This document shows positions 20,373 to 20,790 of a stretch of DNA of 37,661 nt, piece after piece (within the stretch, counting starts at the first letter, position 1; every line of letters starts with the position of its first letter). The stretch comes from Melioribacter roseus. GTDB lineage: Bacteria; Bacteroidota; Ignavibacteria; Ignavibacteriales; Melioribacteraceae. Location of the stretch: assembly GCA_020722085.1 (NCBI GenBank), contig DYLN01000020.1, positions 1 to 37,661 of the forward strand. Reading direction: 5' to 3'. The notes below the pieces were generated by a model. The model saw nothing but the letters and a program-made list of their open reading frames with translations, was not told the DNA's origin and made no database searches. A program made the position numbers and the translations under genes.

Positions 20373-20401
20373 TTGACATCATACTTACGCAAAAGTATAT
20401 T
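20373..20401 (+). promoter_or_regulatory. Promoter P1 of the metY leader
   Basis: TTGACA (20373-20378), a 17-base spacer and TATATT (20396-20401) give a near-ideal sigma70 promoter. The predicted start is near 20408, about 35 bases before leader ORF 1. An inverted repeat ATACTT (20381-20386) / AAGTAT (20393-20398) spans the spacer and enters the -10 element, a position where a repressor could act. Confidence 0.65.
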
Positions 20402-20429
20402 TGGCATTAATTTTTTGATACTTTATAAT
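20401..20429 (+). promoter_or_regulatory. Promoter P2 of the metY leader
   Basis: TTGGCA (20401-20406), a 17-base spacer and a perfect TATAAT (20424-20429). It would start near 20436, only about 7 bases before the first leader ORF. It begins where P1's -10 ends. Either or both promoters could be used; P2 matches the -10 consensus better and P1 the -35. Confidence 0.5.
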
Positions 20430-20442
20430 AAGTTTATAACGA

Positions 20443-20529
20443 ATGAAACTCTTCGAATTAAATAACGTCAACGAGATTATTAGCGGCACTGCTATGTGTA
20501 TGATGATGTTATTTAATGCGAAGGGCTGA
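20443..20529 (+). CDS. Leader peptide 1 (Met/Cys attenuation peptide), 28 residues
   Basis: A short ORF starting ATG at 20443 and ending TGA at 20527-20529. It begins MKLFELNN and near its end carries the codon run ATG TGT ATG ATG ATG (20494-20508, residues MCMMM), then LFNAKG. No strong ribosome binding site is visible. Four Met and one Cys codon in five positions is far from chance. The last Met codon ends 11 bases before the antiterminator arm at 20520, and the stop codon overlaps it. This spacing would let a ribosome stalled on Met leave the arm free, and one at the stop cover it. Function is inferred from this geometry and from the downstream methionine operon. Confidence 0.85.
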   Translation: MKLFELNNVNEIISGTAMCMMMLFNAKG

Positions 20530-20590
20530 AAAAAGTTTATAATTTTTTTTGAAAAGCCCTTCAATACAAAAGTTGAAGGGCTTTTTTATT
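20449..20590 (+). promoter_or_regulatory. Attenuator 1: 1:2 helix, antiterminator and terminator
   Basis: Segment 1 (20449-20470) pairs with segment 2 (20504-20525) over 22 positions, with one A-G mismatch at 20456/20518 and two G-U pairs; the core ATTAAATAAC/GTTATTTAAT is perfect. Segment 2's end GAAGGGCT (20520-20527) also pairs perfectly with segment 3, AGCCCTTC (20555-20562). Segment 3 lies in the left arm of the terminator: AAAAGCCCTTCAA (20552-20564) and TTGAAGGGCTTTT (20573-20585), 13 bp with an 8-base loop and a T tail. The helices 1:2, 2:3 and 3:4 are mutually exclusive, as in the trp/his type attenuators. Confidence 0.85.
20552..20590 (+). terminator. Terminator 1 in the metY leader
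   Basis: A perfect 13-bp stem (20552-20564 with 20573-20585), 8-base loop and U-rich end. It lies 22 bases after leader ORF 1 stops and 17 bases before leader ORF 2's ATG at 20607, so all downstream genes depend on reading through it, unless another promoter is present. Sequence is closely shared with terminator 2. Confidence 0.9.
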
Positions 20591-20606
20591 ATTTATGATT
20601 AAAAGC

Positions 20607-20714
20607 ATGAAAACAAATTTTATAAATATTAACCACGGCAATATGATAAGCTCGATTTCTATGTGTATGTGTATGATTATGTGCATGTTTAACTATTTCC
20701 GTGAAGGGACATAA
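20607..20714 (+). CDS. Leader peptide 2 (Met/Cys attenuation peptide), 35 residues
   Basis: Start ATG 20607, stop TAA 20712-20714; an in-frame ATG at 20595 would add four residues. It begins MKTNFIN and carries MCMCMIMCM (20661-20687), five Met and three Cys codons in nine, followed by FNYFREGT. The richer Cys content than leader 1 suggests sensing of both sulfur amino acids. The ribosome-dependent arm GTGAAGGG (20701-20708) begins 13 bases after the last Met codon and lies just before the stop. No obvious ribosome binding site. I do not recognise a family. Confidence 0.85.
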   Translation: MKTNFININHGNMISSISMCMCMIMCMFNYFREGT

Positions 20715-20773
20715 ATTTTTAACAAAATAATAAATTGCAAATTAAAAGCCCTTCACAAACGAAGGGCTTTTTT
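20634..20773 (+). promoter_or_regulatory. Attenuator 2: 1:2 helix, antiterminator and terminator
   Basis: A weaker segment 1 (CACGG at 20634-20638 and AATA at 20640-20643) pairs with segment 2 (TATT at 20694-20697 and CCGTG at 20699-20703), with one mismatch. GTGAAGGG (20701-20708) pairs perfectly with CCCTTCAC (20749-20756), which includes part of the terminator's left arm. The terminator stem is AAAAGCCCTTC (20744-20754) with GAAGGGCTTTT (20761-20771). The same competition logic as attenuator 1. Confidence 0.8.
20744..20773 (+). terminator. Terminator 2 in the metY leader
   Basis: A perfect 11-bp stem (20744-20754 with 20761-20771), 6-base loop and T tail, only 17 bases before the metY start. 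The metY ribosome binding site AAGGAG (20779-20784) follows just after the T tail. The stem core GCCCTTC/GAAGGGC is shared with terminator 1, which suggests a duplicated module. Confidence 0.9.
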
Positions 20774-20790
20774 ATTAAAAGGAGTAAAAA

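Follow-up and report, generated by a model that had tools for sequence, protein, structure and literature searches.

The metY-aspartokinase-metX operon of Melioribacter roseus is very probably controlled by two ribosome-mediated transcription attenuators arranged in series, a reading drawn from sequence comparison and RNA fold models. The window, i.e., the whole stretch of 37,661 nucleotides that was analysed, carries ahead of metY a 519-nt intergenic region in which two short ORFs and two terminators lie in series (Table 1). Attenuation that senses charged tRNA-Met and tRNA-Cys appears to be the best reading of this arrangement. The downstream genes were identified by NCBIfam profiles and belong, as the first-pass annotation had proposed, to methionine synthesis. 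The metX product also scored 479 bits against TIGR01392, under the cutoff of 500 of that model, and the true start of metX may lie later than the listed one, since the latter overlaps the aspartate kinase gene.

Table 1. Features of the metY leader region and the genes downstream (positions in the window)
Feature	Position	Strand	Details
Intergenic region	20272-20790 (519 nt)		Separates PhoH2-like gene from metY
Promoter candidate, TTGACA - 17 - TATATT	20373..20401	+	Consensus scan, 11/12
Second promoter match, TTGGCA - 17 - TATAAT	20401-20429	+	Consensus scan, 11/12
Leader ORF 1, 28 aa, MKLFELNNVNEIISGTAMCMMMLFNAKG	20443..20529	+	ORF and homologous leaders in relatives
Protector hairpin (segments 1:2), leader 1	20449..20525	+	20449-20470 with 20504-20525; can hide A
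AAATA element, leader 1	20460..20464	+	17 nt after A of ATG
Control codons of ORF 1, ATG TGT ATG ATG ATG	20494-20508	+	11 nt ahead of A
Antiterminator segment A, leader 1, GAAGGGCT	20520..20527	+	Overlaps ORF 1 stop codon
Intrinsic terminator 1	20551..20587	+	B 20555-20562, C 20575-20582, T run; -19.2 kcal/mol
Terminator 1 arms		+	GCCCTTC 20556-20562 with GAAGGGC 20575-20581, then T run
Leader ORF 2, 35 aa, MKTNFININHGNMISSISMCMCMIMCMFNYFREGT	20607..20714	+	ORF and homologous leaders in relatives
AAATA element, leader 2	20624..20628	+	17 nt after A of ATG
Control run of ORF 2, MCMCMIMCM	20661-20687	+	13 nt ahead of A
Antiterminator segment A, leader 2, GTGAAGGG	20701..20708	+	Inside ORF 2
Intrinsic terminator 2	20744..20773	+	GCCCTTC 20748-20754, GAAGGGC 20761-20767, T run 20768-20773; -15.8 kcal/mol
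metY, O-acetylhomoserine/O-acetylserine sulfhydrylase	20791..22125	+	TIGR01326, 673 bits, cutoff 495
Aspartate kinase	22138..23568	+	TIGR00657, 330 bits, cutoff 209
metX, homoserine O-acetyltransferase	23534..24673	+	NF001209, 477 bits, cutoff 331

Both ORFs lie exactly where the first-pass annotation had placed them, and their Met/Cys density is beyond chance: among 700 ORFs of 12 to 60 aa in the six frames of the window, these two alone had at least 5 Met/Cys per 8 residues. When the 519-nt region was shuffled with its dinucleotides preserved, 17 of 20000 shuffles reached 5 Met/Cys per 8 residues and none of the 20000 reached the observed 7. ORF 2 has an in-frame alternative start at 20595; that at 20607 was favored because it obeys the AAATA spacing rule described below. 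NCBIfam models applied to nine leader peptides gave a single weak chance match, and none was useful. As to the start of the transcript, six promoter-like sites were found in the scanned stretch versus 4.3 expected, so the promoter matches are weak taken alone. The TTGACA site is the likely promoter of the leader region, judging from its sequence, and by eye several relatives carry TTGACA followed by a TAnnTTTG-like box, the -7 box of the Bacteroidota type, upstream of leader 1. Since the only promoter match between the leaders was a 9/12 one inside ORF 2, at about the background rate, a single transcript most likely meets both stops.

Behind each ORF stands an intrinsic terminator; its left arm, B, has a second possible partner in a segment, A, at the 3' part of the ORF, so that the antiterminator and the terminator are mutually exclusive, in agreement with the earlier description. 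The A:B helix reached -15.5 kcal/mol in leader 1 (6/501 in a shuffle test) and -15.0 kcal/mol in leader 2 (1/501), where A pairs with CCCTTCAC and two of the pairs extend into the terminator loop. A consensus terminator scanner listed terminator 1 and missed terminator 2, because the T run of the latter falls inside the stem of the scanner. The A-B-C pattern GAAGGG..GCCCTTC..GAAGGGCTTTTT had exactly two matches in the M. roseus genome, both at this locus, and 20 matches in 15 of the 79 genomes of the family, while the reversed-pattern control gave 0.

According to the proposed mechanism, a ribosome would translate each leader ORF, whose Met/Cys codons sit just upstream of A. When both charged tRNA-Met and charged tRNA-Cys are abundant, the translating ribosome would reach the stop codon and cover A, B would pair with C, and transcription would end in the cell; a ribosome stalled on the Met/Cys codons would leave A free to pair with the emerging B, and RNA polymerase would read on. 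The polymerase would have to get past both stops before metY, and the two copies would be expected to combine like a product (a logical AND). The operon thus described most likely opens when Met/Cys run short.

We modeled the ribosome as a 30-nt mask centered on the P site, with the RNA ending just after B. In leader 1, the probability of A:B was 0.93 to 0.99 with the P site at 20491-20503 and 0.72 at 20506, and it fell to 0.07 at 20509 and to 0.00 from 20521 and at the stop codon; in leader 2 it was 0.91 to 1.00 over 20661-20685, 0.59 at 20688, and 0.00 from 20694. At equilibrium, the fold of the full RNA preferred the B:C terminator at every ribosome position tried, in both leaders, so antitermination would, according to these models, have to be kinetic, that is, a race, which is also the general view for the trp attenuator. 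Without a ribosome and before C is made, A:B still formed in the fold model, with a probability of 0.93 in leader 1 and 0.94 in leader 2.

Leader 1 has in addition a hairpin inside the ORF which could hide A, like segments 1:2 of the trp attenuator. The fold of ORF 1 alone had -29.1 kcal/mol and a z score of -4.7, and z was below -2 in 13/14 of the leader-1 set, which includes the leader studied here and two single leaders. ORF 2 folded no better than its shuffles (z of 0.1), and z was below -2 in 3/12 of the leader-2 set, in 12/25 of the leaders before SAM-I together with single leaders of other families, and in 0/11 of the cys leaders. From these z scores, leader 1 resembles an attenuator of four segments, while leader 2 and the cys leaders would use mainly three segments. 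When seven equally long leaders were compared, 84.4% of the cells in the protector were paired versus 39 to 61% when it was slid (13/500 shuffles reached the observed percentage), and both sides had changed in only 2/21 pairs. The model without a ribosome let A:B form in leader 1 while the inner part of the hairpin stayed; in this model the protector alone does not keep A from B, and there is no sign that a lack of translation leads to termination.

The first-pass annotation had proposed that conserved Met/Cys-rich ORFs and the terminator/antiterminator pairing be sought in close relatives, and both were found there (relative genomes are labeled G and loci L below). In the first set of leaders, terminators followed 31/32, the one without being that of G055, and A:B beat dinucleotide shuffles of the A region in 24/31 at p <= 0.05 and in 18/31 at p <= 0.01. 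At p <= 0.05 the same held for 13/20 leaders from other families plus G065 and for 9/11 leaders before cysH; across the 62 scored leaders, A:B was not significant in 16. The leaders are related and not independent, so combined p-values would overstate the case and were given no weight. Under a stricter rule, a hairpin was present in 61/62 leaders and a contiguous A:B helix of at least 6 bp in 50/62, of which one, in leader 2 of G020, involves the T run and is clearly not an A segment. The leader of G142 had no T run and no recognisable terminator. The distance from the stop codon to B was 22 to 34 nt in 56/62 leaders, a spacing at which a ribosome on the stop codon would cover A and leave B free. 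No U-rich pause motif is claimed for the spacer, where TTNTTT showed only mild enrichment (16/62 versus a shuffle mean of 9).

Since B must match C, an A segment that resembles C pairs with B for free; pairs made with the terminator loop are not explained in this way and are therefore informative. At least two such loop pairs occurred in 13 of the 50 contiguous helices, a count made without a shuffle control, and the loop pairing of leader 2 is matched by other bases in several relatives, e.g., GTTTGTGAAGGG with CCCTTCACAAAC in G001. The arms themselves covary as well: they are GGAGGC/GCCTCC/GGAGGC before cysH of M. roseus, and of the ACCGGC type (CCGGCTTC-type) in G159 and G160.

The leaders share a further element near the start codon. 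AAATA begins exactly 17 nt past the A of the start codon in 51/62 metY and cysH leaders and in 1/188 ordinary ORFs from the loci of the same group, which rules out a general feature of gene starts. Codon 7 is AAT in 54/62 leaders and AAC in none, and the residue at codon 8 varies; it is thus the nucleotides that are conserved and not the peptide, and an amino acid motif was discarded. When every in-frame ATG was counted, Asn stood six codons on in 53/62 leaders, versus 6 to 19 at other offsets. The starts in this set of 62 were partly chosen by eye, and the set omits G055, G142, G094, G039, every named locus other than L014, all leaders upstream of cysK, trpE, or the sulfate transporter gene, and the second short ORFs of the cysH upstreams (eight in number). 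AAATA is not a mark of all attenuator leaders in the order, being at +17 in 1/4 of the cysK-type and 0/3 of the trp leaders, and by eye it is at +16 in the trp leader of M. roseus. ATG-N14-AAATA combined with an ORF of 15 to 48 codons and a terminator gave 50 hits in 1.136 Mb of loci, 49 of them Met/Cys or Cys leaders; these loci were chosen for metY and cysH, so the scan does not inform on other operons. On its own, ATG-N14-AAATA was too unspecific in the M. roseus genome (384 matches versus 321 in a reversed control). The fixed distance to the start codon suggests, though as a guess, that AAATA acts in starting or timing the translation of the leader.

We then determined what stands before metY in the relatives. 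An Rfam scan of the window with 4227 families, which we take to include the T-box model, gave 0 matches at the gathering score, hence no SAM riboswitch match, as the first reading by eye had suggested, and no T-box match. A search for metY at E <= 1e-120 found it in 43/79 genomes of the family, and the upstream sequence was read in 41; G003 and G068 are excluded from this count since their metY lies at a contig edge, G086 was left out for an incomplete metY match, and the 237 nt of G042 were too short to classify. Two Met/Cys leaders were present in 11/41 upstreams (G000, G001, G018-G021, G023, G025-G027, and G066), and a single one without SAM-I in 2/41 (G064 and G067); G065, found by pattern, is a twelfth double-leader genome beyond the 41. 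The metY of G064 equals that of Stygiobacter electus, which makes Melioribacteraceae the most likely identity of the family. Rfam riboswitch models matched none of the 13 leader-only upstreams. The SAM-I riboswitch (RF00162) was found before metY in 27/41 upstreams, with a leader ahead of it in 8 (G013, G035, G039, G044, G046, G050, G054, and G055) and without a leader found in 19, the SAM-only counts here and below being upper bounds, because the Met/Cys threshold missed G039 and G094, which other scans recognised. Two other families of the order contributed 25 of their 26 metY upstreams to the comparison: 17 carried a leader and SAM-I, 3 a leader only (G148, G159, and G160), 2 SAM-I only (G158 and G163), and 3 SAM-I/IV only (G087, G131, and G136). 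A rough text pattern had flagged a SAM element in G148, which Rfam did not support. The named locus L014 has a leader and SAM-I; six other named loci (L009, L010, L011, L013, L019, and L021) duplicate the leaders of G genomes and were counted once. Of these, L021 is Stygiobacter electus and has the single-leader form, and L011, a MAG labelled Melioribacter roseus, has the double form.

Of the 36 rows in the metY tree, six were named loci and 30 came from the 41 genomes of the family; G065 was absent. All double and single leaders without SAM-I fell into one clade of 14 rows, L021 included, with a support of 100/98, and L014 formed the next branch beside it. The simplest history, as far as these sequences suggest, would start from one leader ahead of a SAM-I riboswitch, followed by the loss of SAM-I and the gain of a second leader in its place. 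Different short ORFs were seen elsewhere. In L015, L018, L022, and a shorter L017, an ORF with NISNLHLFYACRPVLE..FDGNF.CC lies between a SAM-riboswitch-like stretch, recognised by eye, and metY, and represents a different, Cys-ended leader type. In Bacteroidota proper, metY has one short ORF upstream, carrying a run like CCMCC, CCCICC, or MMMCMMM (L035, L038, L039, L041, L043, L045, L052, L067, and L071); those of Niabella, Marinoscillum, and others were left uncounted, as no clear terminator was visible by eye.

A pattern free of codon content (AAATA, gap, GCCCTTC..GAAGGGCTTT) was run over 164 genomes of the order and matched 26 genomes in one spacing range and 38 in another, against 4 and 1 hits in the respective controls. 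It found leaders with Met/Cys runs ahead of metY, with Cys or Cys/Met runs ahead of cysH, with Cys runs ahead of cysK-like genes at four loci, and with Trp runs ahead of trpE-like genes at three loci, two of them almost alike; at L268 (G018, contig C16), a Met/Cys leader with MMMAMCMCMN precedes the gene for a sulfate ABC transporter binding protein. Several hits, among them L224, L225, L270, and L274, were not leaders. One protein of each kind was checked, and CysK, the sulfate-binding protein, and CysH were above the curated cutoffs, while TrpE scored 511 against a cutoff of 518. A cysH homologue was present in 12/79 genomes of the family and had a leader in 11 of the 12; in the twelfth, G018, the leader precedes not cysH but the sulfate transporter gene of that contig. 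M. roseus itself has a Cys/Met leader before cysH, no leader upstream of its two cysK-like genes (38-39% identical), and at L281 (contig C153) a Trp leader, MKLGNKIYYFNLLTAWAWWWHTDKHEVPVN, with WAWWW before trpE and a terminator-like hairpin seen by eye, from which classical attenuation seems to be more widely used in this genome. Across these operons, the run of codons in the leader ORF is for the amino acid of the pathway downstream, as sensing of charged tRNA predicts.

The earlier picture thus held with regard to layout and fell short in what it left out, namely, the hairpin inside ORF 1, the SAM-I history, and the other operons. Its reading as attenuation is supported, given that leader ORFs, terminators, and A:B pairing are kept in relatives despite divergence of sequence and the codons follow the pathway. 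In M. roseus (L150, 941-1081) and in seven relatives (G001, G025, G051, G056, G057, G058, and G064), the cysH upstream holds, after its first Cys leader, another short ORF, which ends in CCC or CCCC and has no strong terminator behind it in 8/8 cases; by analogy with the Cys leaders of Actinobacteria, it is perhaps under translational or Rho-dependent control. Actinobacterial Cys leaders are reportedly the subject of Canestrari 2020.

A wider reading is possible, and we put it forward with considerable doubt: sulfur amino acid synthesis throughout the Ignavibacteriales would be under one related family of attenuators, comprising the metY and cysH leaders, with AAATA as a hitherto undescribed cis element of their own on which ribosome loading or timing would depend; the serial combination of a peptide attenuator and SAM-I would be common, and SAM-I would have been replaced by a second attenuator in the clade of the window.

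It is improbable, though to be taken seriously, that leader 1 is the sole true attenuator and leader 2 a decayed or differently working copy, e.g., a translation-coupled or constitutive one. The weak protector hairpin of leader 2 (z of 0.1), the absence of its terminator from the scanner list, and the finding of one leader only in G064 and G067 would fit such a view. Yet the longer of the two Met/Cys runs is that of leader 2, which has also kept AAATA and a terminator of -15.8 kcal/mol and whose A:B pairing enters the terminator loop, for which several relatives have the equivalent in other bases.

Far less credible are two explanations without a sensing ribosome. Met/Cys-rich peptides can bind copper, and the ORFs might on that account encode functional small metal- or thiol-handling peptides, with the terminators as ordinary ends; we consider this very improbable, since, control residues and codon-7 element aside, the leader peptides diverge, the run consists of Trp ahead of trpE-like genes and of Cys ahead of cysK-like genes, and the ORF ends pair with the terminators. 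That a ligand-binding riboswitch, e.g., of an unknown SAM class, drives the terminators would accord with the frequency of SAM-I before metY in the family (27/41), but it too is hardly to be believed in view of the window having no Rfam hit, of relatives sharing, by eye, no aptamer-like block beyond the codon runs, AAATA, and the arms, and of leaders and SAM-I coexisting in 25 genomes. The two serial attenuators responding to charged tRNA-Met and tRNA-Cys thus stay the preferred reading.

Leader-peptide attenuation is itself a mechanism of a known kind. Like attenuators of the trp/his type, the leaders described here have an ORF with control codons, alternative hairpins, and an intrinsic terminator, and leader 1 appears to have all four segments; unlike in those, Met control codons are mixed with Cys and two units stand in series. 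SAM-I (RF00162) resembles them in its position before metY; unlike the leaders it is absent here, and it senses SAM and not charged tRNA. A close Cys attenuator is the uORFC-8-2 motif before cysS in Rhodobacterales, predicted to be ribosome mediated, which also joins an upstream ORF with tandem Cys codons to an intrinsic terminator; as far as that account goes, it differs in being single, in having two Cys codons with no mention of Met, and in its target, a tRNA synthetase gene (PMC8632094). In Actinobacteria, short ORFs with Cys runs precede cys operons with, in the part of the report consulted, no conserved terminator, unlike both leaders here, and no conserved RNA structure was described upstream of the methionine operons (PMC1262725). 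Of the ORFs studied here, it is the second one ahead of cysH that has this appearance.

Among tandem arrangements, the mgtCBR leader of Salmonella also has two short ORFs, one of which senses charged tRNA-Pro, but its attenuators respond to two different signals, ATP and proline, with effects reported as additive, and the excerpt seen contrasts it with leaders having two intrinsic terminators (PMC3641672). In the metE leader of Bacillus clausii (Sudarsan 2006, as described in PMC3641672), two expected intrinsic terminators likewise stand in series before a methionine gene; there they belong to SAM and B12 riboswitches, and the description has no leader peptide. A paper on a flavobacterial transcriptome mentions, in the portion consulted and without detail, hints of leader-peptide attenuation upstream of amino acid operons (PMC9723704). 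In searches of an open-access library, outside of which most subscription journals lie, we found neither a methionine leader-peptide attenuator nor a tandem of two peptide attenuators for the same signal nor one of a leader peptide and SAM-I. Nor did these searches yield a description of such an attenuator in Ignavibacteriales; the first-pass annotation, too, knew of no described double Met/Cys attenuator in this lineage.

Elsewhere, the control of methionine synthesis lies with SAM riboswitches, Met T-boxes, or repressors. If the present reading is true, a leader peptide read by the ribosome can control it as well, and one locus would have swapped a sensor of SAM for a sensor of charged tRNA-Met/Cys, with the intermediate still present in living relatives. 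Through its mix of Met and Cys codons, a single leader would be able to monitor the sulfur supply at two points, and the near invariance of AAATA hints at a component of attenuation missing from textbook models. Named, cultured relatives such as Stygiobacter electus make the attenuation model testable.
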